NCBI RefSeq assembly: GCF_000585335.1
Contig: NZ_KK073872.1
Location: 3,153,283-3,217,282 of the forward strand
DNA from: Cloacibacillus evryensis DSM 19522
Lineage (GTDB): Bacteria; Synergistota; Synergistia; Synergistales; Synergistaceae
Reading direction: 5' to 3'
DNA: 64,000 nucleotides
Shown: positions 2,622 through 21,371 of the stretch, in pieces
Layout: every line of letters begins with the position of its first letter
How positions within the stretch are numbered: position 1 is the first letter of the stretch
Program-made: the position numbers and the translations under genes
The notes under the pieces: generated by a model
Told to the model about the DNA's origin: nothing
What the model saw: only the letters and a program-made list of their open reading frames with translations
Databases searched by the model: none

Positions 2622-3812
2622 TTAGAAACTGTCGTCTATTCGGAGCACGGCATCTTTGAGTACCTTCGCGCCGCGTATGAGATCGGCATCGCTCGTAAAT
2701 TCGTCTTTTGAGTGGCTTATGCCGTTGTGGCTCGGGACAAAGATCATCCCCGTCGGTATGACATGGGCCAGCGGAGAGGAATCATGGGACGCGCCGCTCG
2801 GCATCACCGCAGCGGAATATCCGGCCTTGCCGGCGCTCTCTTTTATCGTCTTCACGAGCCTCTCGTCAAGAAGCACCGCCGGCTTCGCGCCAAGTTTTTC
2901 TATTGATACGGAGCAGGGAGCGGATCTCTCCGCCATCGCCGAAAACTCCGAGCAGGCGCGTTCGACGGCCGCGTCGTCGATCGAACGCAGTTCAAGTACG
3001 AAGCGCGCCTCTTCCGGCACGACGCTGACGTGGCCGGGGGAGAGCTCCAAGACGCCGATATTGCAGACAAGCTCTTTTTGCCCGTCCATCCAGCCGAACC
3101 AGTTGTGGATCAGCTCCGCCGCCGCGCGCATGGCGTCTTTTCTCTCCGCCATCGGCGTGGTGCCCGCATGGTTGGCCGCGCCCTTGACGCTGACCGCCAG
3201 CCGCGTGATGCCGACGATGCCCGAGGGTACGCCGATCTCGATTCCCCGGCGTTCGAGAAAGGGGCCTTGTTCGATGTGCAGCTCGATAAAGGCCGCGTAT
3301 TTGTCCAGCTCTCCCTTGCTTTCCGCGATCGCTTTTTCGCCGACGCTGAATCGCGCGAGCTGTTCGCGCCGGTAACCGGTCGGCAGCAGTCCCGCGAAGG
3401 CGCGGCTGCCGAAGGTGCCGCCGAGCGGTTCGCCCTCTTCGCCGATGAAGGCGACGACTTCAAGGCTGTGTTTAGAGAGCTCACCGCTCTCTTTTACCGT
3501 CCGCAGAACTTCGAGCGCCGCGATTATGCCAAGCGGACCGTCGTAGATGCCGCCGTTATCCACGGAGTCAAGATGCGAGCCGGTGAGGATCGCCTTTTTG
3601 CTTTTTCCCTCAAGACGCCCGAAGAGGTTTCCCACCCCGTCAACCCGTGTCTTTAGGCCGGCTTCTTCCATTTTGCCTTTGAGCCACGCGCGCGCTTCGA
3701 GGTAGGACGTACTGTAGGCGAGGCGCTGGAGGCCGTGTCCCTCCCTCCAGCCGATTTTTCCCTGCGCGAAGAGGTCGTTAAGAAAACGGTTCTCGTTAAT
3801 GGCGGGAGCCAT
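2622..3812 (-). CDS. M20-family amidohydrolase (allantoate amidohydrolase / N-carbamoyl-amino acid hydrolase type)
   Basis: This 396-residue zinc peptidase-fold enzyme belongs to the M20 subgroup that cleaves ureido or carbamoyl groups (allantoate amidohydrolase, N-carbamoyl-L-amino acid hydrolase, ureidoglycine-type enzymes). Metal ligands can be read as H80 (GSHLDSV), D91 (YDGPLG), E125/E126 (IGEEGE), H179 (ELHIEQGP) and a late His in PSHNGISHSKDE. The start MAPAINENRF shares one base with the TAA of the upstream amidohydrolase (TAATG) and has AAGGGA eight bases before it, so the two are translationally coupled. It is the last gene of the molybdenum-hydroxylase operon. The exact substrate cannot be fixed from sequence. 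Confidence 0.85.
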   Translation of the reverse strand: MAPAINENRFLNDLFAQGKIGWREGHGLQRLAYSTSYLEARAWLKGKMEEAGLKTRVDGVGNLFGRLEGKSKKAILTGSHLDSVDNGGIYDGPLGIIAALEVLRTVKESGELSKHSLEVVAFIGEEGEPLGGTFGSRAFAGLLPTGYRREQLARFSVGEKAIAESKGELDKYAAFIELHIEQGPFLERRGIEIGVPSGIVGITRLAVSVKGAANHAGTTPMAERKDAMRAAAELIHNWFGWMDGQKELVCNIGVLELSPGHVSVVPEEARFVLELRSIDDAAVERACSEFSAMAERSAPCSVSIEKLGAKPAVLLDERLVKTIKESAGKAGYSAAVMPSGASHDSSPLAHVIPTGMIFVPSHNGISHSKDEFTSDADLIRGAKVLKDAVLRIDDSF

Positions 3813-5194
3813 TATGCTTTTCCCTTCAGCAGGCATTTGCCGTAGCCGGGTTCGCCCGTTACCTGCCCATCTTCATACACGACTTCGCCGCGCAGGATGA
3901 CTTTGTCGATCACGCCGTTGAGTTTCCAGCCGTCGAAAACTTTGGCGATGTCTTTGGCCATCGTCCGCATTTGTTCTTTTTCCACCGTGTATTCGGCTTT
4001 CGGGTCGCAGAGGACGAAATCCGCGTCGGCGCCGATCTTTATCGCGCCTTTTCGCGGATAGAGGCCGTAGGCCTTCGCGGGGTTTACCGCGATCAGTTCC
4101 GCGGCGCGGCGCAGGGAGATCCTTCCGTCCGCGACGGCCTTCATCATGAGGCCGAAGCGTGTCTCAAGTCCGGGGAAACCGGCGGGGGCGAGGAAGATGT
4201 CCTGCGGGTTGCGCTCTTTTTCTTCCACCGTGTAGGGGGCGTGGTCGCTTCCCACTGTATCTATCGTGCCGTCCTCTATATAGTCCCACATTTTTTCGAC
4301 GCGCGCCTTGTCGCGCAGCGCGGGATTGCACTTCGCATAAGCTCCGTATTCGTTGAGGGCCTCTTCCGTAAGGTAAAGGTACTGCGGGCAGGTCTCGATC
4401 CAGATCTTCATGCCTTTGGCGCGCGCGGCTTTGGCGGCCTCCACCGCCTCCGGCGTCGAGATATGGACAAGATAGAGGGGACAGTCTATCGTCTCGGCGA
4501 GACGGATGAGGCGGTCCACCGCCAGCGCTTCGGCGACGGCGGGACGCGAGGCGGCGTGGTCGCAGGGGGCGACGCGCCCCTCCCTGCGCAGCTCGGCGAT
4601 CGCTCCCGCGACGAGGTCGTTGTCTTCCCCGTGCGCCGCCATCGGCAGGCCGGTCTTTTTGACCTCTTCCATGACCTTCAGCAGTTCGTAATTCGTTTCG
4701 CTCGTGAGGCCGACGAATTCCTTTTCGCGTCCCTCCGGCGCGGCGTGGAGGAAGGTCTTATATCCCCAGACTCCCGCCTCGGCGACGCGGCCTATCTCCT
4801 CTATATGCTTGCCTCCCGCCGCGCCGAGGAAGGCGACGTCGACTATCGCCTGCTCCCCGACGGCAGCGACGCGCGGCGCGAGCGTCTCGGGACTGTACTG
4901 CGGCGGAGTGGAGATGGGATGTTCGATTATCGTGGTGACGCCGCCCGCGGCGGCGGCCGCCGTGCCCGTCACAAAGGTCTCGCGGTGCGCCCCGCCAGGA
5001 TAGCGGATATGAACATGCGGGTCTACTCCGCCTGGAAGCAGCGTCAGCCCTCCCGCGTCGATCACCCGGTCGGCCGCGGGAAATTCCTCCGCCGACCCCA
5101 GCGCGGTTATCCTGCCGTCTTCCGCCAGCACCCAACCTTTAAAATAATCATCCTCCGTGAGGATCTGCGCGTTTTTGACCAACAATCTTTCCAT
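3812..5194 (-). CDS. Cyclic amidohydrolase (allantoinase / dihydropyrimidinase-hydantoinase type)
   Basis: This 460-residue amidohydrolase-superfamily enzyme opens cyclic ureides. The binuclear metal site is visible: H60 and H62 (DPHVHIRYPG), K146 (GYKTFLH, the carbamylated lysine), H188 (AAHGED), H244 (LVHISTPEA) and D317 (SDHAPY). The combination resembles allantoinase and hydantoinase; dihydropyrimidinase and a ring-opening purine amidohydrolase are alternatives. It ends in TAATG overlap with the M20 enzyme, which would hydrolyse the carbamoyl product, and starts 38 bp after the IclR gene. Context suggests a second step after hydroxylation of a purine or other N-heterocycle by the adjacent molybdoenzyme. 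Confidence 0.86.
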   Translation of the reverse strand: MERLLVKNAQILTEDDYFKGWVLAEDGRITALGSAEEFPAADRVIDAGGLTLLPGGVDPHVHIRYPGGAHRETFVTGTAAAAAGGVTTIIEHPISTPPQYSPETLAPRVAAVGEQAIVDVAFLGAAGGKHIEEIGRVAEAGVWGYKTFLHAAPEGREKEFVGLTSETNYELLKVMEEVKKTGLPMAAHGEDNDLVAGAIAELRREGRVAPCDHAASRPAVAEALAVDRLIRLAETIDCPLYLVHISTPEAVEAAKAARAKGMKIWIETCPQYLYLTEEALNEYGAYAKCNPALRDKARVEKMWDYIEDGTIDTVGSDHAPYTVEEKERNPQDIFLAPAGFPGLETRFGLMMKAVADGRISLRRAAELIAVNPAKAYGLYPRKGAIKIGADADFVLCDPKAEYTVEKEQMRTMAKDIAKVFDGWKLNGVIDKVILRGEVVYEDGQVTGEPGYGKCLLKGKA

Positions 5195-5232: not shown

Positions 5233-5976
5233 TTACCGGGCCGGCGTCAGATTTTTAGTTTCTTCGATCAATACGGAGAGCCACATGTCTCTGTCTCTCT
5301 CATAGTCAAACCTCGTGCCCGCGACCGTCAGCGCCATGATCAGGTCCGTCCCGCACATGTCGATGTGAACGGATATCGCGGCGACGCCGGGATCCATCTC
5401 TTCGACCGATTCGCAATATCCCTTTTCCCTTATCTGTTTCAGATCTTCCCTCAGCAGCTTCGGGTCTGTCACCGTAAATGGCGTGAACGCCTCTAGCTTC
5501 TGAGAGAGCACCTTTTTCACAAGCGCCTCAGGAGCGTACGCCAGAAGCATCCTGCCGCTGGCCCCGGCGTGAAAGGGCTGTTCCTCGCCGATTATCGAGG
5601 CGATCCTTACAACGCTGTTCGATTCTATCTTGTGCAGACAGACCACCCGTTCGTGGTCGATAATATTGAGGAAGGCGGATTGCCCGCACCGTTTGACCAC
5701 ATTCCGCAGCACGGGATCGATCCTTTTTACCGTGTCGAGATTCACGCGCCATTCGTTGGCCAGCGAGAGGAATTTCAATCCGATATAATAATTCTTGTCC
5801 TCTTCGTCCTGATAGGCCCAGCCGATGGCGGTCAGCTCCTGCAATATGCGGTGGACCGTGCTCTTCGGCACCCCGGTAAGCTCCTCTATCTTTCTTACGC
5901 TGTGCGCCTCTTCCGAATCTTCGAGCGCCTCCAAGATCGTCAGGATCGTATCTATGGAATCAAAAAACTTTCGCAT
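5233..5976 (-). CDS. IclR-family transcriptional regulator
   Basis: This 247-residue regulator has an N-terminal winged helix-turn-helix (about residues 8-65, with TGVPKSTVHRILQELTAIGW as recognition region) and a C-terminal IclR effector domain (about 80-245, with the HAGASGRMLLAYAPEA segment). It sits inside the hydroxylase operon, 61 bp after the [2Fe-2S] subunit gene, so it is probably autoregulated. It is a clear paralogue of the IclR protein at 17252-17995 in the effector domain. It is the first candidate to bind the GGGACA-N2-TGTCCC palindromes at 9859 and 10153; that assignment is inference. Confidence 0.92.
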   Translation of the reverse strand: MRKFFDSIDTILTILEALEDSEEAHSVRKIEELTGVPKSTVHRILQELTAIGWAYQDEEDKNYYIGLKFLSLANEWRVNLDTVKRIDPVLRNVVKRCGQSAFLNIIDHERVVCLHKIESNSVVRIASIIGEEQPFHAGASGRMLLAYAPEALVKKVLSQKLEAFTPFTVTDPKLLREDLKQIREKGYCESVEEMDPGVAAISVHIDMCGTDLIMALTVAGTRFDYERDRDMWLSVLIEETKNLTPAR

Positions 5977-6037: not shown

Positions 6038-6574
6038 TTATTTGTGCTCGCAGCCGCAGGGCGGCAGGTCGTCCTGTATCCAGACGCCGTCCTCAGGATC
6101 GTCAAGAACCTCGCCGTTGGCCACGCTCATCACAGCTTTGAATATCTTATCATAACCCGTGCAGCGGCAGAGGTTCCCTGAGAGGGCCTTTCTCAGTTCG
6201 TCCATAGTCGGGTGCGGATTGCGGTCGAGCAGCGCCTTCGAGGAGAGAAGCATACCCGGCGTGCAGTAGCCGCACTGTATCGCGCCGTAGGCGACGAACG
6301 CCTTCTGGAGCGGATGAAGGGCCTTCTCGCCGCCGAGCCCCTCTATCGTCAGAATATCCTTTCCCTCGGCGTCGGTTGCGAGCATAAGGCAGGAGTTGAC
6401 GGGCCTGCCGTCAATCAGCACCGTGCAGGTGCCGCATTCGCCGCCGCCGCATCCGCACTTGGTTCCGGTAAAATGCAGATCGTCGCGCAGAAAATCGAGC
6501 AGGGTATGATTTACCGATACCTCTTTAGTCATCGCCTTGCCGTTCAGGATAAAACTTACCTTTTTCTTAAGCAT
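6038..6574 (-). CDS. Molybdenum hydroxylase, [2Fe-2S] subunit (first operon)
   Basis: This 178-residue protein is the small iron-sulfur subunit of the xanthine dehydrogenase family and passes electrons from the Mo site to FAD. The plant-ferredoxin cluster is C42-X4-C47-X2-C50-X11-C62, and the second cluster is C101-X2-C104 with C136-X1-C138 (GNLCRCTGY). It starts at MLKKKVSF, 17 bp after the FAD-subunit stop and behind AGGGGTGAGAG; an earlier ATG at 6601 overlaps the previous gene. An unusual ~38-residue tail after the second cluster ends in CGCEHK, possibly extra metal-binding residues. Confidence 0.95.
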   Translation of the reverse strand: MLKKKVSFILNGKAMTKEVSVNHTLLDFLRDDLHFTGTKCGCGGGECGTCTVLIDGRPVNSCLMLATDAEGKDILTIEGLGGEKALHPLQKAFVAYGAIQCGYCTPGMLLSSKALLDRNPHPTMDELRKALSGNLCRCTGYDKIFKAVMSVANGEVLDDPEDGVWIQDDLPPCGCEHK

Positions 6575-6591
6575 CTCTCTCACCCCTAAGC

Positions 6592-7434
6592 CTATCTGCA
6601 AAGCTCTCTCAGCAGCCCGGCCGCCGCCGCCCTGAGCATGTGGCTCCGGTACGCCGCCGAGCCGCGAACGTCGTCTATCGGCGAGGCCGCGGCGGCGACA
6701 AGCCCGGAAATCTTCTCAATATCACGCGCGGCGTCCGAACCTTCAAGCGCCCTTTCCGCTTCCGCCGCCCGGATCGGAGTCGGGGCGACCGAACCCATCG
6801 CGATACGGGCCCTCGTACAGACTCCGCCCGCGAACGAAAGGGAGACGGCCATATTCATCACCGCGATATCGGCGGCCTTGCGCGGCCCCATTTTGAAAAA
6901 CGCCTGCCTGGTATCCGCCGGCATCTTCGGGAGGCGCAGGGCCTTCAATATTTCGCCGCCCTCAAGGCAGTTCTTTCCCGGTCCTTTGAAAAAGTCTATC
7001 AGCTTCGTCTCACGCTCATGCCTGCCGTCGGTGATCACCGCGACGGCGTCCGAGACCAGCAGGCCGGGCACCGTGTCCGCACAGGGCGACGAATTGCAGA
7101 TATTGCCGCCGATGGTGCCGAGGTTGCGCACCTGCGGCGTTCCGATATTGTCCGCCCCTTCCGCGACGGAGCGCCATCCGTCATAAAACTCCTCGGATTC
7201 GGCAAGCGCCGCGATCTTCGTCAGCGCTCCGATGATGACCCCGTCGTCCGAGAAGCGCATCCCTCCAAGCTCTTCTATACCTTTAAGATTTACGACCACC
7301 GCCGGCTTTCTGACGCCGTGCTTGATCTGCACGACAAGGTCGGTGCCGCCGGCTATCGCCCGCGCGCCCTCCGCCGTCAGCAAATTGCAGGCCTCGGCGA
7401 CCGTCTTCGGCTCGTAATAATCAAACTCTCTCAT
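6592..7434 (-). CDS. Molybdenum hydroxylase, FAD-binding subunit (first operon)
   Basis: This 280-residue subunit holds FAD in the xanthine dehydrogenase / CO dehydrogenase (CoxM) family. FAD-binding motifs are AIAGGTDLVVQ (about residues 27-37) and TIGGNICNSSPCADTVP (about 108-124). The C-terminal CoxM-type domain follows. The start MREFDYYEPK lies only three bases after the stop of the large-subunit gene, and the stop is 17 bp before the [2Fe-2S] subunit, so the three subunits are co-translated. It would transfer electrons to NAD(P)+, ferredoxin or another acceptor. Confidence 0.94.
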   Translation of the reverse strand: MREFDYYEPKTVAEACNLLTAEGARAIAGGTDLVVQIKHGVRKPAVVVNLKGIEELGGMRFSDDGVIIGALTKIAALAESEEFYDGWRSVAEGADNIGTPQVRNLGTIGGNICNSSPCADTVPGLLVSDAVAVITDGRHERETKLIDFFKGPGKNCLEGGEILKALRLPKMPADTRQAFFKMGPRKAADIAVMNMAVSLSFAGGVCTRARIAMGSVAPTPIRAAEAERALEGSDAARDIEKISGLVAAAASPIDDVRGSAAYRSHMLRAAAAGLLRELCR

Positions 7435-7437
7435 AAC

Positions 7438-9771
7438 CTACGCCTCCTTCGCCCACAGCGCTTTGAGTATCTTTTCCGGCGTACAGGGAAGATCGGGAAT
7501 CCTCACCCCGCACGCGTCATAGATCGCGTTGGCGATCGCCGGAGCCACGGGGTTCGTGACTCCCTCGCCGACGCCCTTCGCCCCCAGAGGCCCCGTTGGC
7601 TCCCAGGTCTCCTCCGTGATTACCTCGACAGGCGGCATATCCATCGACGTAAGGATCTTATAATCCCCAAACTGTGCGTTGAGAGGGCGTCCGCTCTTTT
7701 TATCAAAAACGGTGTCTTCCATGAGCGCGTATCCGGCCCCCATGTGCACGCCGCCGACGATCTGCCCTTCGACGTTGTTGAGATTCATGATCGTCCCCGC
7801 GTCGGCTCCGGCGACGACCCTTACTATATCGACCTTGCCCGTGATAGTGTCTACGTCCACCTCGGCGAAAATGACCGTGAAGTGCGGCGGGCAGGCCTGC
7901 GGCCGTATTGTGGAAGTGGCGCAGACGTTGCCCCAGCCGCTGGAAATACCCTTAAGCATCACCTCTCCGACGGACCTGCTCACGCTCGGATCGGCCACAA
8001 GATAGATGCGGCTGTCTTTGATGTCGATCTCTTCCAGCCCGCAGCCGAAGACGCGCGCGCCCCATTCGATGATCTGCCCGCGGATATCCGCCGCGCATTT
8101 CGCGACCGGCTGCCCCGCGCCGTAAACACCGCGGCTCGCGTGCGTCGCGCCGTCAAAGATCGTGCAGTCGGTATCGCCGTCCTTTATATGCACGTCCTCG
8201 TAGCGCAGCCCGACGATCTCCGCGACCATCGAGCAGTAGACGCTCATGTTGCCGCTGCCGCAGTCCGCCGCCGAATTGAGGATCGTCGCCGTGCCGTCCT
8301 CGTTCATCTTGACGATCGCCCCGCTCACGTCGATGATGAACTTGTTCGGCTTCTCGGAGCCGCAGCCCGACGTATGGAAGCCGCGGGCGAGCCCGATGCC
8401 GCGTTTGATCCAGGGCTTGTCGGGATATGGCACCCGTCCGCTGCCGCGGCCCCTCTTTTCCCAGCCGATGGCAGCCGCGCCTTTTTCCAGGAGCGGCAGC
8501 GTGCCGTTTGAACGGATGGTGCTGATGACCGCCGGTCCCTGTCCGTAGAACTTATCTCCGACGGAAAGAATATTCATCTTGCGGAATTCTATCGGTTCGA
8601 TGCCGAGCCTCTCAGCCGCCTCGTCCATCAGGCTTTCCATCGCCCAGGTGGCCTGCGGGTTTCCGGCGCCGCGCATCGCCGTCAGCGGCGGCGTGTTCGT
8701 ATAGACGGCGCGCCCAGACATGCGCAGATTGGGGCACTTGTACATCGAAAGCGTGAAGCCCGCGGCGAGCATCATCTTTGAAGATCCGCTGAAAGCATAG
8801 GAGCCGGTGTCATCCGTAACATCGGCGTGAAGGGCGATGATCTTCCCCTCTTTCGTAAATCCGGCCTTGAGATCGAGGAGCATCGGGTGGCGGCCGCAGG
8901 AGAGGAACATCTCTTCGCGCGTCTTCTCCGCCTTGACCGGAGAACCGGTCCTTAAAGCGAGGAAAGCGCAGATATTTTCAATAAATCCGGTCTGGATGTG
9001 GGCGCCGAAGGCTCCGCCGAGGAATACTCGGTGGCAGGTGATCTTTGAAACGGGCAGGCCGAGGGAATAGGCGATATTCATGCGCATGGCATGGATGCCC
9101 TGCGAAGTGGCCCAGACATCAACATGCCCGTTTCCGTCGGGCACGCAGAGGACGGCGGTCCTCTCAAGCGGGGCGGGGTTCGGCTTTGAAGTACGGAAAT
9201 GCTTCGTCAATACTAAATCCGCCTCATCAAAGGCCTTTTCCACGTCTCCGATGGTGATGTCGACCGTGTCGAAGACATTGCCCCTTATATTGACCGGATT
9301 GTCGCCCTTGAGCGCCTCCTCGTGTATCACGGGCGCCTCCGGCGCAAGCGTCGATTCAAAATCCAGAGCTGACGGCAGCACCTCGTATTCAACTTTTATC
9401 TTTTCGAGGGCCGCCTCCGCCGCTTCTACCGTCTCCGCCGCCACCGCCGCCACGCGGTCACCGACATGGCGCACGTGACGCTCCAGCAGATAACTGTCCT
9501 TATACATGATCTCCGGGACATGGAGATACTGATGCATGCTCAATATCTTCGGCACATCGTCGTAGGTTATGATATCGACCACGCCCGGCACGTTCAGCGC
9601 CTCGCTTTTATCGACGCTCTTCACGACCGCGTTTGCGTAAGGGCTGCGCAGTATCTTGCAGTGAAGCATATTCGGCACATAAAGGTCGCCGGTATACTTG
9701 AGCCTGCCCATCGCCTTGAGGCGCGCCTCCTGCTTCTCCTGCCTTTTGCCAACGATCTGGAAGTTCTTCAA
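7438..9771 (-). CDS. Molybdenum hydroxylase, molybdopterin-binding large subunit (first operon)
   Basis: This 777-residue catalytic subunit of the xanthine dehydrogenase superfamily carries the molybdopterin-cytosine-dinucleotide site. Visible signatures are GGAFGAHIQTGF, AMRGAGNPQATW, the pterin-contacting region around NSAADCGSGNMSVY, and the catalytic glutamate E736 in GAKGVGEGV. It is the first gene of the operon; its start lies about 88 bp downstream of the operator at 9859-9872. Substrate is uncertain: xanthine or hypoxanthine is likely given the amidohydrolases downstream, but nicotinate, pyrimidine or aldehyde substrates cannot be excluded. The YqeB, XdhC, YedE and YedF genes nearby make a selenium-containing cofactor plausible. 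Confidence 0.93.
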   Translation of the reverse strand: MKNFQIVGKRQEKQEARLKAMGRLKYTGDLYVPNMLHCKILRSPYANAVVKSVDKSEALNVPGVVDIITYDDVPKILSMHQYLHVPEIMYKDSYLLERHVRHVGDRVAAVAAETVEAAEAALEKIKVEYEVLPSALDFESTLAPEAPVIHEEALKGDNPVNIRGNVFDTVDITIGDVEKAFDEADLVLTKHFRTSKPNPAPLERTAVLCVPDGNGHVDVWATSQGIHAMRMNIAYSLGLPVSKITCHRVFLGGAFGAHIQTGFIENICAFLALRTGSPVKAEKTREEMFLSCGRHPMLLDLKAGFTKEGKIIALHADVTDDTGSYAFSGSSKMMLAAGFTLSMYKCPNLRMSGRAVYTNTPPLTAMRGAGNPQATWAMESLMDEAAERLGIEPIEFRKMNILSVGDKFYGQGPAVISTIRSNGTLPLLEKGAAAIGWEKRGRGSGRVPYPDKPWIKRGIGLARGFHTSGCGSEKPNKFIIDVSGAIVKMNEDGTATILNSAADCGSGNMSVYCSMVAEIVGLRYEDVHIKDGDTDCTIFDGATHASRGVYGAGQPVAKCAADIRGQIIEWGARVFGCGLEEIDIKDSRIYLVADPSVSRSVGEVMLKGISSGWGNVCATSTIRPQACPPHFTVIFAEVDVDTITGKVDIVRVVAGADAGTIMNLNNVEGQIVGGVHMGAGYALMEDTVFDKKSGRPLNAQFGDYKILTSMDMPPVEVITEETWEPTGPLGAKGVGEGVTNPVAPAIANAIYDACGVRIPDLPCTPEKILKALWAKEA

Positions 9772-9858: not shown

Positions 9859-9872
9859 GGGACATTTGTCCC
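9859..9872. promoter_or_regulatory. Palindromic operator GGGACA-TT-TGTCCC at the minus-strand hydroxylase promoter
   Basis: This perfect 6+6 palindrome matches the one at 10153-10166 except for the two central bases. It lies just downstream of the predicted minus-strand -10 box (9885-9880), that is over the start point, and 88 bp before the large-subunit gene. The placement predicts repression. A nearby IclR-family protein is the likely ligand-responsive binder. Confidence 0.8.
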
Positions 9873-9879
9873 ATAACTA

Positions 9880-9909
9880 AGTCTAATATCATTTACATCG
9901 TTTTGTCAA
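9880..9909 (-). promoter_or_regulatory. Predicted promoter of the first molybdenum-hydroxylase operon
   Basis: The -35 box TTGACA (9909-9904) is perfect. The best -10 is TAGACT (9885-9880), four of six matches at 18-base spacing, so the core promoter is imperfect. The operator starts eight bases downstream. The weak -10 may mean dependence on an activator. Confidence 0.6.
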
Positions 9910-10118
9910 TACCCCCTGATAGATAAAATTTTCGCTTAGGTCCGGCCTCTTCAGCTTTTTGTTTACCATGGACAACTTCTGATATTTTTATCCGCAAAAA
10001 ATCCGCGCCACAGCTAAATGCAATCGACTTGCATAAAGACATGACGCTGCCGGAAGCTGTTAATTTATGTGAAATTTTTTATCGTAAAAATAAACATAAA
10101 TATATTTATAAAATGCTA
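9910..10118. other. A+T-rich divergent regulatory region
   Basis: About 210 bp between the two divergent promoters, clearly A+T-richer than the flanking genes. I found no open frame and no further copy of the GGGACA palindrome. It leaves space for DNA bending or a looped repressor joining the two operators, whose centres are 294 bp apart. Confidence 0.5.
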
Positions 10119-10146
10119 TTGACAATTCTTACCGCATGGGTATAGA
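10119..10146 (+). promoter_or_regulatory. Predicted promoter of the transporter/second hydroxylase operon
   Basis: TTGACA (10119-10124) is followed after 16 bases by TATAGA (10141-10146). The start point would fall at about 10153, exactly at the operator palindrome. Confidence 0.75.
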
Positions 10147-10152
10147 GTATTT

Positions 10153-10166
10153 GGGACAGATGTCCC
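10153..10166. promoter_or_regulatory. Palindromic operator GGGACA-GA-TGTCCC at the plus-strand promoter
   Basis: This second copy of the 14-bp palindrome begins seven bases after the -10 box, the same geometry as at the divergent promoter. The flanks are also alike (TATTTGGGACA on the left). Paired copies at equivalent positions of divergent promoters argue for one regulator controlling both operons. Confidence 0.8.
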
Positions 10167-10517: not shown

Positions 10518-11813
10518 GTGATCAAGTTTATCTTATCAAGTGCCGTAGGGATATTTCTATTTTTCGCTCCTGTCTTCGGCGGTAATGTGCCGCTGGTCGC
10601 GCTGGTGGATTTTTTGAAAAAACTGCTTGGCGCGGCATGTATCAACTATCTGGTTCTGCTTTTCTGCCTTTCTCTTATCGTCACCGTGTTTTTGGGCAAG
10701 GTGATGAAGATAAAGGTATTTGCGGAATATCATAAAGAGGATGGCCTGGGAAAGATCTTTTTTTACGTACTGGCGGTAATTTTTACCGTGATGGTCATCA
10801 CCGGCAGGGGGCCGGCGCAGATACTGGATCCGAATATCGGCGGGCTCGCCCTTCCGCTTGCCGGATCCGTGATGCTCACCGTCACTTTTGCCGGCTGGTT
10901 TGTGGTAATGATCCTTAAATCCGGGATCGTTGAATTCATGGGCATCCTCATCGAACCGATGATGCGTCCTTGCTTTACGCTCCCAGGCTGCGCCGCGGTC
11001 AACGGCATCGCCTCTTTCGTCTCGGCACCGGCCGTCGGCGTGTTTATGACAGAGCAGCTCTATCGCGGGAGGGACTACACCGATAGAGAGGGACTTACCG
11101 TACTTACCTGTTTTTCCGTCTGCAGCCTCGGTTTCTTTGGCGTCCTGGTATCTCTCGGCGGCATCGAACATCTCTATGCCCAAGTAGTCATTACATCGTT
11201 CGTTCTTACGTTCGTCATCGCCGCTATCTGTGCGCGGATCCCGCCGCTCTCCGGTAAAAGGGACCATTATATCGACGGGACGGAACAGACCGCGCAGGAC
11301 CGCGTCCCGCGCAAGATCGACCACAGGTTCAGGGCCGCCGTCCAGGCGGGAATAGCGCGGTCGAAGGAGCTGGATTTTAAGGTTTTCATGGCCACACTCT
11401 GGAGCGCGATCACTTTTACGCAGAAAATCGTCGCCTATGTCGTGTCGGTCGCGATCGTAGCGCTTCTCCTCGCCGAACACACGCCGCTTTTCACATGGCT
11501 GGGAATGCCGATAATTCCCGTGCTTAAGCTGCTTCAGATACCAAATGCGGCTGAGATCGCACCGGCAACGCTGGTCGGGATCGCTGAGATCGCTCTCCCC
11601 GTGATCATGATATCGGGAAAGGGCATCGCCGAAGAGAGCATTTTCTTTATAACGGTGCTTTCATCGGTACAGATAATTTTCTTCACGGAAAGCGCAAACG
11701 CGATGCTTGAGAGCATCATTCCAGTCACGGTGCTGGATCTTATCATCTGCTTTCTCGTAAGGACGGTGATAGCAATTCCGCTTTTAGCGCTTGTATGTCA
11801 CTTTTTGTTTTAG
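10518..11813 (+). CDS. YjiH-type transporter with nucleoside-recognition (gate) domain
   Basis: This integral membrane protein has 431 residues and about ten or eleven hydrophobic segments. Its composition matches the YjiH group, in which two gate-type modules are separated by a charged cytoplasmic loop (here KRDHYIDGTEQTAQDRVPRKIDHR). The GTG start at 10518 follows AAGGGGG by about eight bases; the frame stays open upstream but that part is hydrophilic and lies in the leader. As first gene of the hydroxylase operon, 41 bp before the FAD subunit, it probably imports or exports the hydroxylase substrate, such as a purine or nucleoside-like compound. The substrate is inferred only from context. 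Confidence 0.78.
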   Translation: MIKFILSSAVGIFLFFAPVFGGNVPLVALVDFLKKLLGAACINYLVLLFCLSLIVTVFLGKVMKIKVFAEYHKEDGLGKIFFYVLAVIFTVMVITGRGPAQILDPNIGGLALPLAGSVMLTVTFAGWFVVMILKSGIVEFMGILIEPMMRPCFTLPGCAAVNGIASFVSAPAVGVFMTEQLYRGRDYTDREGLTVLTCFSVCSLGFFGVLVSLGGIEHLYAQVVITSFVLTFVIAAICARIPPLSGKRDHYIDGTEQTAQDRVPRKIDHRFRAAVQAGIARSKELDFKVFMATLWSAITFTQKIVAYVVSVAIVALLLAEHTPLFTWLGMPIIPVLKLLQIPNAAEIAPATLVGIAEIALPVIMISGKGIAEESIFFITVLSSVQIIFFTESANAMLESIIPVTVLDLIICFLVRTVIAIPLLALVCHFLF

Positions 11814-11854
11814 ATAAAACTGTCCACTGAAAGAAATAGGAGGGAGTGCTTTTT

Positions 11855-12715
11855 ATGAAGCAACTGGGTTTGAAAGAGTACCTTATTCCGGGATCACTTG
11901 AGGAGGCCGTCGGGATACTTGACGAATATCCGGGGAATATCGAGATCATCGCCGGGGGGACGGACGTCTTCGTCGACGAGCATCCGGAGCTTGACGCGAT
12001 GCTCGACATAACAAAGCTCGGACTTGACCATATCGTATTGAAAGAGGGCGTGCTTATCATTGGAAGCTGCGCCACCTACCACGACGTAATCAAGTCGCCG
12101 GCTGTTAAAGAAAATTTCAGAGCCCTGTGGGACGCCTCAAATGTCCTGGCCGACATGACGGTAAGAAATATCGCCACCGTAGGCGGCAACATCTGCTCCG
12201 CCGTCCCCTCGGGAGACGCCATTCCCTCAATGCTGGCCTGCGGCGCGGAATTCGTGCTCGTCTCAAAGAATGGGGAACGCACGGTCGGAGCGGAAGATTT
12301 TTTCATTGGCCCGCGCAAAACCGTTCTCAAGAAAAATGAGCTAATAAAGGAATTTAAAGTGGCGCTGCCCAAAGAGAGGTTCTCAAGCGCCTTTGAAAAG
12401 GTGGCGAGAAATTCCGTGGATCTCGCAAACGCTAACGTCGCCGCTTTCGTAAGCTGCGCGGAGGACAAAAGTATCGGCGATATCAGGATCGCGCTCGGCG
12501 CGGTCGCCCCGACGGTGGTAAGGGCGAAAAAGGCGGAAAAATTGATGTTGAGCAAGAGACCGGACGAGGAGCTGCTAAATGAGCTTTGCGCGGCAATACC
12601 GGAGACAATATCACCGATAACGAACATCCGCAGCACGAAGGAATACCGCACCGAAGTAACGGGCGTTCTTGTAAAGAGAGCCGTCCTGCGGGCCTACGAA
12701 TCCGCGGCGGCATAG
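11855..12715 (+). CDS. Molybdenum hydroxylase, FAD-binding subunit (second operon)
   Basis: This 286-residue CoxM/XdhB-type flavin subunit carries IIAGGTDVFVDEH (about residues 32-44) and TVGGNICSAVPSGDAIPSML (about 106-125) as FAD-binding motifs. The start is MKQLGLKEYL at 11855, with AGGAGGG upstream; an in-frame GTG at 11846 lies inside the ribosome-binding region and was rejected. It belongs to a different branch from the FAD subunit of the first operon, since the flanking sequence differs at most positions, so the operons are not a recent duplication. The [2Fe-2S] gene follows after 26 bp. Confidence 0.94.
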   Translation: MKQLGLKEYLIPGSLEEAVGILDEYPGNIEIIAGGTDVFVDEHPELDAMLDITKLGLDHIVLKEGVLIIGSCATYHDVIKSPAVKENFRALWDASNVLADMTVRNIATVGGNICSAVPSGDAIPSMLACGAEFVLVSKNGERTVGAEDFFIGPRKTVLKKNELIKEFKVALPKERFSSAFEKVARNSVDLANANVAAFVSCAEDKSIGDIRIALGAVAPTVVRAKKAEKLMLSKRPDEELLNELCAAIPETISPITNIRSTKEYRTEVTGVLVKRAVLRAYESAAA

Positions 12716-12741
12716 CGGACGGCAATCGGGAGGGGAAAAAT

Positions 12742-13227
12742 ATGGGAAAGAAATACGCCATTACTTTTACGCTCAACGGCGCGGAGCGCACGGCTGAAAT
12801 CGAGGCGGGGACGACAATGTCAACGCTTCTTAGGGAGATATTCCACCAGACGGGGACCAAGGTCGGCTGTGATATCGGCGACTGCGGGGCCTGCACGATA
12901 ATAATGAACGGCAGGGCCGTGAAGTCCTGCATTCTCCCGGCGATGAAAGCCGACGGCGCAGATATCGTGACTATAGAGGGGCTCGCGGGCAAGGACGGCC
13001 TTCATCCGCTGCAGAAAAAGTTCGTAGAGTACGCGGCCGTTCAGTGCGGCTACTGCACGCCGGGCATGATCCTCGCCGCGAAGGCATACCTTGACGAAAA
13101 TCCCGATCCGACGGAAGAAGAGGTGCGTATAGCCATCTCCGGCAACATCTGCCGGTGTACGGGATATGCGAAACCCGTTCTTGCGATACTCAGCGCCGCA
13201 GAAGAGATGAGGGGGGAAGGTAAGTAA
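12742..13227 (+). CDS. Molybdenum hydroxylase, [2Fe-2S] subunit (second operon)
   Basis: This 161-residue iron-sulfur subunit has the first cluster at C43-X4-C48-X2-C51-X11-C63 and the second at C102-X2-C105 and C137-X1-C139. The start MGKKYAITF follows GGGAGGGGA. It is the normal length for the family and lacks the Cys-containing tail of its counterpart in the first operon. Its TAA overlaps the ATG of the large subunit (TAATG), showing translational coupling. Confidence 0.95.
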   Translation: MGKKYAITFTLNGAERTAEIEAGTTMSTLLREIFHQTGTKVGCDIGDCGACTIIMNGRAVKSCILPAMKADGADIVTIEGLAGKDGLHPLQKKFVEYAAVQCGYCTPGMILAAKAYLDENPDPTEEEVRIAISGNICRCTGYAKPVLAILSAAEEMRGEGK

Positions 13228-15578
13228 TGAGCACCAAGCCAGAGGCGAAAAAAATAGAGATACCGGCCCCGGCGACATGGAGAAAGCTCAATGTCGTAGG
13301 CAAGAGCCTGCCGAAGGTCGACGTCGTGAATAAGGTCACCGGTGCGGCGGTATACACTTCGGACATATACCTGTCGAATATGCTCACGGGACACCTCGTG
13401 CGCTCGCAGCACACACGCGCAAGGATAATATCGATAGACAAAGAGGCGGCGATGAGGGTCCCCGACGTCGCGGACATCATCACCTGCTTCGACGTTCCGG
13501 ATGTGCATTTCTCCACGGCCGGCTATCCGCGCGAGACGATACTCGGGGTTTGCCCCAATGTGGACCCCAGATATATGGAAGACAGGACGCTCATGGAGCG
13601 GGAACTTCGCTACGAGGGCGAGATCGTGGCGCTCATTCTCGCGGAAAACGTTCAGGCCGCCCGCGAGGCGGAATCGCTTCTCAAGATTGAATACGAGGTG
13701 CTGCCCCACGTGGCGGACACCGCTTACGCCCTTTCGGAGGAGGCGCCGCTCATCCATGGCGGGACCGGCAAGAACGTCATTGAGACGGAGATGTCCTACG
13801 GAGACTTGGAGGAAGGTTTCAAAAAATCCACCCATATTTTTGAGGATTCCATTTCCGTACAGGGACAGCAGCATACCTGCATGGAGACCTCATGCTCGAT
13901 AGCGCAGATAGAACCGTCGGGAAAGGTCACGCTGTGGAGCACGACGCAGGTCCCGTTCCACATCAGGAGAAACATCCACGAGGTGCTCGGCATCCCGATG
14001 AGCAAAATACGCGTCATAAAGCCGGCGATCGGCGGCGGCTTCGGCGAACGCCAAATGGTCCAGAACGAGATACTGTGCGTCTATGCGGCGATGCGCACGA
14101 AACGCTCGGTGCGCATCGAGCTGACACGCGAGGAGAACATCGCCTACACTTCGCTGCGCCATCCGGCTGACATTACGCTCAAGACGGGCGTGGACGACGA
14201 CGGCAAGATACTCGCCTATCAAATGTACGTCCGTTCCTGCGCCGGCGCATACTCCGGGCACAGCAACTACGTCACCAAAGCGATGTGCACGAAAAACCCA
14301 TATAAGCTGGGAGCGATGTTTTTTCACGCCGATATCACCTTCACCAACAGGCCTGACTCCGGAGCCTACAGAGGCTACGGAAACCCGCAGATGTGCTTCG
14401 CGCGCGAATACCACTTCGACCGCATCGCGAAGGAACTGGGCATGGACCCGACCGATTTCAGAAAACGGAACATCGTGCAGGTGGGAGAGCAGAACCCCAT
14501 CGCGCTCAAGTCAGACTGGGTACTCCAGAGCAACGGATTGGAAGCCTGCATCGATGCCGGCAAAGAGGCGATAAAGTGGGACGAGCGTCGGGAACCGCAA
14601 GGCTCAAAGCGTTACGGCAAGGGGATGTCCGCCGCGCTGCACGTGACCGGCATTTCCGCGGAGCCCGACTTCTCATCCGCCACGATAAAGCTCAACGAGG
14701 ACGGTACGGTCAGCCTCCTCATCGGCTCGCCGGATCTCGGGCAGGGCAGCGATACGACTCATGCGCAGATATGCGCCGAAACGCTGGGGATCAACCTCAA
14801 AGACGTCAACGTCCTCTCCGCGGATACCGACGTGACCTCGTTCGACGGCGGAAGCTATTCCTCTCGCCAGACATTCGTCGCGGGAAACGCGATAATCCTC
14901 GCGGCCCAAAAGGTGAAGGAGCAGGTGATCAAATACGCGGCGGAAATGACGGGTCAGCAGCGTGGAAATCTTGACACCTACGACGGCTGGATCGTCCGTA
15001 AAGAAAACGGGCGCCGGGTGACGTCGATGGCGGACCTAGCCTATTTCGCGGCATACAAGGCGACAGAGCCCATCCACATCTGCGAAAGCGCCAGCTACAA
15101 CGCGCTTAACTGTCCGCCGGCATTCGCAGCCCACTTCGCCGACGTCGAGGTCGACGTTGAGACTGGCGCGGTGAAGATACTTAACTTCGTGGCGGCACAC
15201 GACGTCGGCAAGGCGATCAACCCCGACCTGGTGACTGCGCAGGTTGAGGGCGCGGCCGCGCAGGGCATCGGCTACGCGCTCACGGAAGACATGATCTATG
15301 ACGGTAATGCCAAGCTGCTGAACAACAGCTTTACCGACTATAAAGTACCGCGTTCGACCGACATGTGCCCGATAGAGGTGATCGTCGTCGAGGCTTACGA
15401 ACCGTCCGGGCCCTACGGCGCCAAGAGCGTCGGCGAAATGGCCGTCGCTCCCGTCGCTCCGGCGATAGCCAACGCCATCTATGACGCGGCGGGAATCAGG
15501 ATTCCCTCGCTGCCCTTTACAAAAGAAAAAGTGCGGGCGGCGATAAAGGAAAAAATGGCCAAAGAGAAAAAGTCATAA
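13227..15578 (+). CDS. Molybdenum hydroxylase, molybdopterin-binding large subunit (second operon)
   Basis: This 783-residue catalytic subunit has GGGFGERQMVQNE, AYRGYGNPQMCFA, a pterin-binding SPDLGQGSDTTHAQ region and the catalytic glutamate E737 in GAKSVGEMA. The YRGYGNPQ version of the active-site loop differs from RGAGNPQ in the other hydroxylase, so the two probably act on different substrates. A basic N-terminal extension of about 25 residues precedes the usual start of homology (LNVVGKSLPKVD). The gene overlaps the [2Fe-2S] gene by one base and is followed after 79 bp by yqeB. Confidence 0.93.
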   Translation: MSTKPEAKKIEIPAPATWRKLNVVGKSLPKVDVVNKVTGAAVYTSDIYLSNMLTGHLVRSQHTRARIISIDKEAAMRVPDVADIITCFDVPDVHFSTAGYPRETILGVCPNVDPRYMEDRTLMERELRYEGEIVALILAENVQAAREAESLLKIEYEVLPHVADTAYALSEEAPLIHGGTGKNVIETEMSYGDLEEGFKKSTHIFEDSISVQGQQHTCMETSCSIAQIEPSGKVTLWSTTQVPFHIRRNIHEVLGIPMSKIRVIKPAIGGGFGERQMVQNEILCVYAAMRTKRSVRIELTREENIAYTSLRHPADITLKTGVDDDGKILAYQMYVRSCAGAYSGHSNYVTKAMCTKNPYKLGAMFFHADITFTNRPDSGAYRGYGNPQMCFAREYHFDRIAKELGMDPTDFRKRNIVQVGEQNPIALKSDWVLQSNGLEACIDAGKEAIKWDERREPQGSKRYGKGMSAALHVTGISAEPDFSSATIKLNEDGTVSLLIGSPDLGQGSDTTHAQICAETLGINLKDVNVLSADTDVTSFDGGSYSSRQTFVAGNAIILAAQKVKEQVIKYAAEMTGQQRGNLDTYDGWIVRKENGRRVTSMADLAYFAAYKATEPIHICESASYNALNCPPAFAAHFADVEVDVETGAVKILNFVAAHDVGKAINPDLVTAQVEGAAAQGIGYALTEDMIYDGNAKLLNNSFTDYKVPRSTDMCPIEVIVVEAYEPSGPYGAKSVGEMAVAPVAPAIANAIYDAAGIRIPSLPFTKEKVRAAIKEKMAKEKKS

Positions 15579-15657: not shown

Positions 15658-16446
15658 ATGGGCAAAAACAAACTTGCGATAGTGCGCGGGGGCGGAGACC
15701 TCGCCACGGGAGTGATATACCGGCTTTGGAGGTCAAAATTCGACGTGCTCTGTCTTGAGACGGCCCGCCCTCTTGTGGTGCGCAGGACCGTAGCCGCGGC
15801 GGAGGCCGTATTCGACGGGAAGTTTGAAATAGAGGATATGTGCGCCGTAAAGATCGGATCGCTTGCGGAATGGACCGACCGGCGCAAGGTGGCGGTGCTG
15901 GTCGACCCGGAGGGAAAATCGATCAGGGAGCTTTCTCCGTCCGTAGTCGTGGACGCGACGATGATGAAGCGTTACTCGGGGACTTCAAAAGATATGGCGC
16001 CGCTGGTACTTGCGCTCGGCCCCGGGTTCTCAGCGCCGGAGCAGGTACACGGCGTGATAGAGACGAAACGGGGACATTACCTCGGCAGGCTCATCACCAA
16101 CGGCTCCGCGATCCCCAACACGGGCGTCCCCGGGATGGAGATGGGCTACACCACGGAACGGTTGCTGCGTGCGCCCGCCGGCGGCTATGTAAAGAATGTG
16201 CGCGATATCGGCGACCACGTCGAGCGCGGAGAGCTGATCGCGGCAGTTGGCGAGGCAGAGGTCCGCGCCCAGATAAGCGGTATGCTTCGCGGCCTCATCC
16301 ACCCAAGCGTAAAGGTGGAGGCGGGGCTCAAGATAGGCGACGTCGATCCCAGAAACGTCAGGGAACACTGCTTCAGCATCACGGACAAAGCTCTGGCGAT
16401 CGCCGGCGGCGTGCTAGAGGCGATAATGGGCTTCGCCTGCCGCTGA
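15658..16446 (+). CDS. yqeB: YqeB/EF2563-family protein of selenium-dependent molybdenum hydroxylases
   Basis: This 262-residue protein opens with KLAIVRGGGDLATGVIYRL, the Rossmann-like start of the EF2563/YqeB family, and continues with the characteristic RLITNGSAIPNTGVPG and GGYVKNVRDIGDHVERGELIA regions. The family is known from comparative genomics to accompany molybdenum hydroxylases that need a labile selenium atom at the Mo site. Its biochemical role is not established, but maturation of the cofactor is the accepted idea. It lies in the second hydroxylase operon behind a GGGGGAAAGAGAG ribosome-binding region, 79 bp after the large subunit. Confidence 0.9.
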   Translation: MGKNKLAIVRGGGDLATGVIYRLWRSKFDVLCLETARPLVVRRTVAAAEAVFDGKFEIEDMCAVKIGSLAEWTDRRKVAVLVDPEGKSIRELSPSVVVDATMMKRYSGTSKDMAPLVLALGPGFSAPEQVHGVIETKRGHYLGRLITNGSAIPNTGVPGMEMGYTTERLLRAPAGGYVKNVRDIGDHVERGELIAAVGEAEVRAQISGMLRGLIHPSVKVEAGLKIGDVDPRNVREHCFSITDKALAIAGGVLEAIMGFACR

Positions 16447-17251: not shown

Positions 17252-17995
17252 ATGGCTGCTGCGGCTGGTGCGAATATAAAATACATGTCAAAGGTTTTCG
17301 AACTTTTTTTCCGATACAGGCTTGAGCTGTCGCTTCCCGAGACCGCGGCGCAATGCAGGACGACCGAATCTCAGGTCAAACCGATACTGGAAAAACTTGC
17401 CGAAAGGGGCTGGCTTTCCTTCTCAAAAGAAAAAAAGACATACCGCTATGGGATGATGCTCCTTCCGTTCACAAGGGAGGAGGTCATAAAGGCGGAGCTT
17501 GTACGCCAGTTCACGCCCGTAATGAAGCAGCTTTCAGAGGATTGCAGCCAAAGCGTGATGCTCAATTTTCTTGAGGGCATAAAATCCATCTGCATACAGA
17601 AGATAAATCCTAAAAACGCGATACACATCGCGGCAAGGGTCGGCAGCGAATCGCCGCTCCACGCCGGGAGCAGTTCGCGGGTGCTTCTTGCCTACGCGCC
17701 GGAGGCGGTGCGTAAAGAGGTGATGTCGTCTCCGCTCGAGAAATACACCCCCTTTACCATTACCTCTCCGGAAGAACTCAACGATTCGCTTTTTGAGATC
17801 CGCAGAACTGGCTGCTGCTGCAGCATAGAAGAACGGGACCCAGGAGCCGGAGCCGTCTCCTGCGCAATACTTGACGACAGCAACAACCTTTTGGCGGGGC
17901 TCTCGATCATCGGCACGCGCTTTGCTTATGAGACGGAAGGGGCGCTCTGGAAGGCGCTTCTTCTTGAGGCCGTCAAAAAAGTCAAACTGGCATAG
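17252..17995 (+). CDS. IclR-family regulator, paralogue of the 5.2-6.0 kb regulator
   Basis: This 247-residue protein has an IclR effector domain closely matching the regulator at 5233-5976 (HAGSSSRVLLAYAPEA against HAGASGRMLLAYAPEA, and KYTPFTITSPEEL against AFTPFTVTDPKLL). Its winged-helix region (about residues 10-60) is much less conserved, with AAQCRTTESQVKPILEKLAERGW. A CCC triplet in RRTGCCCSIEER stands where the paralogue has GYCESVEEM, which could allow metal or redox sensing. Its start follows AAGGAGAGAGACG. It has its own promoter and lies between the hydroxylase operon and the fur-like gene. Confidence 0.9.
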   Translation: MAAAAGANIKYMSKVFELFFRYRLELSLPETAAQCRTTESQVKPILEKLAERGWLSFSKEKKTYRYGMMLLPFTREEVIKAELVRQFTPVMKQLSEDCSQSVMLNFLEGIKSICIQKINPKNAIHIAARVGSESPLHAGSSSRVLLAYAPEAVRKEVMSSPLEKYTPFTITSPEELNDSLFEIRRTGCCCSIEERDPGAGAVSCAILDDSNNLLAGLSIIGTRFAYETEGALWKALLLEAVKKVKLA

Positions 17996-20592: not shown

Positions 20593-21342
20593 CTACAGTC
20601 TGGAGGAGATCTCCCTCGCCGCCGCCGCTACCTTGGCACCAAAAATGGCCGCGTCATAATCCGTGAAACGAAATGACGGCGCGGTGAGGCTGATGGCCGC
20701 CACGGGATAATTTTTTCGATTCAATATCGCCGCACCGATACAGCGGATATTTTCTTCATTCTCCTGGTTTTCTTCCGCGTATCCCTGATTTCGGAAGCGG
20801 GCTAGCATCTCTCTGAGCCTATCGGGAGAGGTCACTGTAAGCTTCGTCCTCGGCGTCATCTCCGCCCCGGCGAGATAGGCGTCCAGTTCAGCCTGCGGCA
20901 GCGCGGCAAGGATCGCGCGCCCGGCAGCGGTGCAGTAAAGCGGCAGCGCGGAGCCGAGCCGCGACCACCGCAGGACGACCGTCTGCGGGCTGTTCAGCCT
21001 GTCCGCATACTGCGCGCAGCCATGTTCGTACACCGACAGATGAACCGTCTCCTTTGATTCGTCGCGCAGCTGCCTCATATACGGCTGAGCCATCTCCGCT
21101 ATGCCCGAGGCCAGATGAAATCCGTTGCTCCACAACAGCACAGTAGGCCCCAGGCGATAGAGCCCCTCCTCCGTCTTAAGGATGACGTTGTCTTCGCAAA
21201 GAGTGTTCAGTATCCTGTGGACGGTGGCTTTTGGCATATCCAACTCCTTTGAGAGCTCGGAGATGCCGCTTGCTTTGTCGTTGTTGGCTATATAGTTCAT
21301 CAGTTTTATCGTCTTTCTCAATACGGCCACACCCTGGTCCAT
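20593..21342 (-). CDS. IclR-family regulator, likely of hexuronate/KDG catabolism
   Basis: This 249-residue regulator has an N-terminal winged helix (about residues 5-65; LDMPKATVHRILNTL) and an IclR effector domain (about 75-245). The start MDQGVAVLRK at 21342 has GGAGG eight bases upstream; an ATG at 21357 is in frame but overlaps an operator-like palindrome. It is divergent from kdgK and belongs to a different IclR branch from the two regulators of the hydroxylase region. KdgR-type IclR proteins commonly control kdgK, eda and uxu genes, which fits this position. Confidence 0.9.
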   Translation of the reverse strand: MDQGVAVLRKTIKLMNYIANNDKASGISELSKELDMPKATVHRILNTLCEDNVILKTEEGLYRLGPTVLLWSNGFHLASGIAEMAQPYMRQLRDESKETVHLSVYEHGCAQYADRLNSPQTVVLRWSRLGSALPLYCTAAGRAILAALPQAELDAYLAGAEMTPRTKLTVTSPDRLREMLARFRNQGYAEENQENEENIRCIGAAILNRKNYPVAAISLTAPSFRFTDYDAAIFGAKVAAAAREISSRL

Positions 21343-21356
21343 TCTCAATGCCTCCA

Positions 21357-21371
21357 TTCCATGTTATGGAA
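21357..21371. promoter_or_regulatory. Operator-like palindrome TTCCAT-GTT-ATGGAA
   Basis: Perfect 6-bp arms separated by three bases lie just upstream of the ribosome-binding site of the IclR gene. Autoregulation is likely. I could not find a second copy in front of kdgK or uxuB, so a wider role is open. Confidence 0.55.

Follow-up and report, generated by a model that had tools for sequence, protein, structure and literature searches.

Two perfect GGGACA-N2-TGTCCC palindromes at the predicted starts of two divergent operons in Cloacibacillus evryensis DSM 19522 are, on sequence grounds, a real operator pair. They are probably the operators of one IclR-family repressor, with IclR1, encoded in the left operon, as the most likely protein. 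The initial annotation had described two perfect 14-bp palindromes 294 bp apart, and this is borne out: both are exact, with a start-to-start distance of 294 bp. The relevant features, numbered within the window (the whole stretch of 64,000 nucleotides that was analysed), are as follows.

2622-3836, minus strand: AllC-type hydantoinase/carbamoylase family amidase
3812-5194, minus strand: AllB-type amidohydrolase, above the TIGR03178 allantoinase cut-off
5233-5976, minus strand: IclR1, likely repressor, fourth gene of the left operon, recognition helix PKSTVHRIL
6038-6601, minus strand: xdhC1, 2Fe-2S subunit
6592-7434, minus strand: xdhB1, FAD subunit
7438-9771, minus strand: xdhA1, which opens the left operon and encodes the molybdenum-binding subunit of a Mo-hydroxylase; its top NCBIfam model is XdhA (NF043082) at 540 bits, under the equivalog cut-off
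9859-9872, minus strand: left operator GGGACA-N2-TGTCCC, GGGACATTTGTCCC, exact palindrome, about +1 to +14 of the left promoter
9880-9909, minus strand: left promoter-like sequence, TTGACA (9909-9904)-N18-TAGACT (9885-9880), consensus match only
10119-10148, plus strand: right promoter-like sequence, TTGACA (10119-10124)-N18-TAGAGT (10143-10148), consensus match only
10153-10166, plus strand: right operator GGGACA-N2-TGTCCC, GGGACAGATGTCCC, exact palindrome
10518-11813, plus strand: Gate-domain (nucleoside-recognition) membrane transporter, GTG 10518 start inferred from the ribosome-binding site
11846-15578, plus strand: xdhB2, xdhC2 and xdhA2, second Mo-hydroxylase
15658-16446, plus strand: YqeB, selenium-dependent Mo-hydroxylase maturation factor, above the TIGR03309 cut-off
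17252-17995, plus strand: IclR2, sister of IclR1, recognition helix TESQVKPIL

The left operon (minus strand) reads xdhA1, xdhB1, xdhC1, IclR1, AllB-type amidohydrolase and AllC-type amidase. The right operon (plus strand) runs from the Gate-domain transporter through xdhB2, xdhC2, xdhA2, YqeB, an FMN reductase, IclR2, a Fur-type regulator and a MoaB-like protein to an XdhC-type chaperone. These are divergent molybdenum-hydroxylase operons, as the initial annotation had it, except that the first gene on the right is the transporter (probably from GTG 10518), which stands ahead of the Mo-hydroxylase genes. Both Mo-hydroxylases score best on XdhA models; since these scores fall below the equivalog cut-offs, purine oxidation by the two enzymes is likely rather than shown. 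A third IclR-family gene in the window (20593-21357) is divergent from sugar-acid kinase-like and aldolase-like genes and is without the GGGACA palindrome.

The exact pattern GGGACANNTGTCCC matches the 3,488,464-bp genome twice, at this pair, and the reversed-pattern control gives no match. The looser pattern RGGWCANNTGWCCY recovers the same two sites only, and allowing one mismatch adds three further genome sites, against three in the control. That the palindromes arose by chance is scarcely credible. In themselves, perfect 6-N2-6 inverted repeats are no rarity, with 26 in the window, but GGGACA is the sole half-site among them to occur twice. A first-order model built from the window predicts 0.10 sites per genome and 1.5e-5 in the 554-bp intergenic region, both sites lie on promoters, and the site recurs at the same place in other genera. 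A one-mismatch site, GGGACACGTTTCCC, lies between two divergent reading frames (G000:C1:52095-52108) and may be due to chance. Exact matches in the seven other genomes of the family are mostly inside reading frames and were taken as chance.

Both divergent promoters have a perfect TTGACA box. The gap from the -10 box to the operator is 7 nt on the left and 4 nt on the right, or 6 nt if the right -10 box is the alternative N16-TATAGA (10141-10146). The palindromes had been placed at the predicted starts of two divergent operons, which stands, and 7-8 bases from each -10 box, which holds for the left promoter only. Transcription usually starts about 7 bases after the -10 box, so each operator is predicted to cover about +1 to +14, and a protein bound over this part of a promoter would block the polymerase. 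A terminator-like call on the left operator was rejected, being the palindrome itself near the predicted start.

We compared 188 Synergistota genomes, of which only two have a close orthologue of IclR1: G014, from the same genus (95%), and G047, from a different one (79%). A search for related loci with the IclR1 alignment gave no match in genome contigs and viral contigs. G047 retains the genes xdhA1 through AllC, which there follow genes for an aldehyde ferredoxin oxidoreductase and a sodium:solute symporter; the operon head reads TTGACA-N17-TATCTT-N6-AGGACATTTGTCCCATAA. At a distance of 259 bp there is another site, GAGACATGTGTCCG, which is decayed, and a 40-residue remnant with similarity to YqeB (blastx E 6e-4) is left between this decayed site and IclR2. 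The decayed site and the YqeB-like remnant suggest that the divergent arrangement is older than the split and that the right operon was probably lost in G047. In G076, from another family of the order, the operator is followed by an IclR2-like gene, an aldehyde ferredoxin oxidoreductase (identified by eye), a symporter, xdhA1, xdhB1, xdhC1, an IclR1-like gene, AllB and AllC; here a perfect GGGACATGTGTCCC lies about 15 bases past the -10 box of a TTGACA promoter. Three genomes (this one and two other genera) thus have a readable head of the xdhABC-IclR1-allB-allC operon, and the site is present in all three. In the orthologous operons that could be read, the IclR gene and the motif are retained together: the search upstream of them that the initial annotation had proposed finds it heading the operon in both G047 and G076. 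G072 was left out, as its operon head lies beyond the contig and the N3 site it has, GGGACACCCTGTCC, falls within the operon. In G014, xdhA1 and xdhB1 are gone, as are most of xdhC1, the intergenic region and the part of the right operon that precedes IclR2, and hence both operators. Despite this deletion, the reading frames of IclR1 (95%) and IclR2 (80%) are intact in this closest relative, alongside a leftover fragment of xdhC1 (L069:10896-13012).

The association with IclR genes extends across the phylum. A gene-blind scan of the 188 genomes for TTGACA-N12..40-GGACANNTGTCC returned nine places, eight of them at IclR genes or IclR-containing operons (in G090, for example, the IclR gene at C424:4171-4878). 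A match at G174:C7:691371 was set aside, since it falls within a reading frame and has no IclR gene close to it. Upstream regions of IclR homologues match with at most two mismatches in 16 of 38 distinct cases, where shuffles predict 0.55; for other genes at the same loci the figure is 10 of 293 (Fisher p 9e-11), and most of these ten are the same IclR operators seen from the neighbouring gene. In one supported clade of the protein tree the site stands before the IclR gene itself in 12 of 12 members, typically as AGG(A/T)CANNTGTCCC near the start codon; related sequences were left in the tree counts, and the 12 are not 12 independent events. IclR1 itself falls outside this clade. In G004, a genome of the same family, the genes beside the site are branched-chain amino-acid type ABC transporter genes. 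A sister clade, which includes the IclR gene at G000:C1:795938, has GGACA-N3-TGTCC instead, in four of five members. By this distribution the operator goes with an IclR group and not with purine genes as such, which supports the earlier proposal of one IclR-family repressor on both operons. G046 carries two AGGACANNTGTCCC sites (L132:4908-4921 and 6573-6586); they precede an IclR gene and, close by, the gene of a periplasmic binding protein, one site each, and likely mark a small regulon.

The motif had been said to match no known IclR site, a statement that needs correcting. IclR motifs fall into two classes, of which group 2 is TGRAACA-N1-2-TGTTYCA (Suvorova and Gelfand 2021, PMC8222616). 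The present site shares with group 2 its layout, the spacer of 2, the TG-R-x-ACA half-site, the position near the promoter start seen in most IclR sites and an adjacent regulator gene. As in group 2, each operon contains an IclR gene (IclR1 left, IclR2 right), and the site is conserved with its regulator, at the operon heads of G047 and G076 and throughout the related clade of 12. It differs in one base per half, an A to G change (TGGGACA here, TGRAACA in the consensus), and in its targets, which here are Mo-hydroxylase and AllB/AllC-type genes. AllR, the allantoin utilisation repressor of E. coli, is likewise an IclR-family protein, and AllB/AllC-type genes are among the probable targets here too, but its operator KTTGGAAWAWTWTTCCAAC (PMC8222616 Table 1) is unlike the present site. 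We rejected IclR1 as an AllR orthologue, as it scores 90.8 bits on NF007548 against a cut-off of 406. KdgR of gamma-proteobacteria is a further IclR-family protein with a palindromic site, RWWGAAACGNCGTTTCAKKA (PMC8222616 Table 1), built on a GAAAC-type half; half-site and targets both differ, and IclR1 falls below the KdgR model cut-off. Literature searches on IclR proteins with xanthine dehydrogenase, and on Cloacibacillus purine genes, gave nothing specific.

The operator pair is new in Synergistota, a phylum that the survey in PMC8222616 does not mention, and would be an ordinary kind of bacterial gene control. It provides a predicted regulon for an uncharacterised IclR protein of Synergistota and links, in an anaerobe, two Mo-hydroxylases with AllB/AllC-type hydrolases in what is probably a single purine/ureide pathway. 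To the IclR recognition code it contributes a variant of the half-site and a contrast in spacer length (N2 versus N3), in a phylum absent from the reference survey.

Which protein reads the operators has to be decided among the eight IclR proteins of the genome. IclR1 has both the IclR helix-turn-helix and the C-terminal effector domain above cut-off (PF09339, 49.5 bits; PF01614, 115.4 bits). Aligned with TtgV as in PMC8222616, it has canonical residues at the contact positions (P37, K38, S39, T40, H42, R43). IclR1 and IclR2 are sisters in the tree (support 95/85), with IclR2 on a long branch; the corresponding residues of IclR2 are T, E, S, Q, K and P, so that five of the six positions are changed, Lys to Glu and Arg to Pro among them. 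IclR2 matches PF01614 only, with no match to HTH_IclR. From tree and alignment, IclR2 is a fast-evolving sister of IclR1 with an altered recognition helix. The remaining paralogues differ either in the recognition helix or in the palindromes upstream of their genes. With its canonical contacts set against the altered IclR2 and these other paralogues, IclR1 is most likely the binder. The annotation of two IclR genes nearby was accurate, and of the two it is IclR1 that is the likely binder.

That IclR2 is nonetheless the DNA-binding regulator, alone or in hetero-oligomers with IclR1, appears rather unlikely: its changed recognition helix, missing HTH_IclR match and long branch tell against it, even though its gene lies in the right operon, it stays with its sister IclR1 in G014 and G047, in G076 a distant homologue directly follows the operator, and a winged helix is retained in the structure predicted for IclR2 (mean pLDDT 88). 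Another IclR paralogue acting in trans is very unlikely. The foremost candidate, G000:C1:795938, has a helix (KSTIHRVL) close to that of IclR1 and carries GGGACACTTTGTCC (GGGACA-N3-TGTCCT) about 160 bp upstream (L131:9747-9761 = G000:C1:795747-795761), so that the half-site is common to both; yet its own site has a spacer of 3, as in its clade, and no homologue passes 1e-30 in G047, which carries the N2 operator. A more elaborate scheme, in which IclR1 reads the shared operator, IclR2, with its altered helix, associates with IclR1 in a hetero-oligomer and so modulates or lifts repression, and paralogues sharing GGACA are kept apart by spacer N2 versus N3, is conceivable but doubtful. Outside the phylum, the palindrome is used by other families. 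A promoter-plus-palindrome scan of 84,980 species genomes returned 30 stretches; among those whose neighbouring gene was identified, RGGACANNTGTCCY has the same geometry relative to the promoter and stands next to TetR genes in Bacillus, Thalassospira and a Chloroflexota (by eye also in Paenibacillus, Filibacter and Undibacterium) and next to LexA-type genes in Elusimicrobia and Clostridiales (L104, L107, L108, L112, L119, L123; L105, L106, L111). These operators have a nearly identical palindrome at the same place relative to a TTGACA promoter, whereas the gene neighbours are others, the proteins are unrelated and there are often two copies. A near-identical palindrome with unrelated proteins points to convergence, and since it has arisen in several families, the sequence by itself names no family and the IclR assignment is based on comparing genomes of Synergistota. 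In principle a TetR- or LexA-type regulator with its gene elsewhere could use the palindrome here, as the occurrence of the palindrome at such genes in other phyla suggests, but this is highly improbable: the genome has no other RGGWCANNTGWCCY site, hence none before any TetR or LexA gene, and within Synergistota the site accompanies IclR genes.

With IclR1 as the preferred repressor, a dimer would place one winged helix-turn-helix domain on each GGGACA half. Bound IclR1 would block RNA polymerase at both promoters, because the operators begin 4-7 bases past the -10 box, over the predicted start, and it would repress its own gene along with the left operon. Release of the repressor by an inducer, probably an intermediate of purine or ureide breakdown, would switch on the transporter, the AllB/AllC-type hydrolases and both Mo-hydroxylases at the same time. 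Looping between the operators, which had also been proposed, would run through an IclR tetramer. IclR proteins can be tetramers (PMC8222616), and the spacing corresponds to 28.0 turns at 10.5 bp, but beyond this spacing we found no support for looping, and a literature search on IclR looping gave nothing specific. Chance alone would give such phasing in roughly one case out of three, G047, as the one relative that has both sites, carries the decayed partner at 259 bp, and most relatives have a single site; looping is thus unlikely.

The right leader is about 365 nt long (to GTG 10518); a riboswitch in it was rejected, as it gave no Rfam match and a fold z-score of -1.4. A sub-threshold SAM-alpha riboswitch match (9930-10021, minus strand; 17.6 bits, cut-off 36, E 0.29) is probably due to chance, since it lies upstream of the left promoter.
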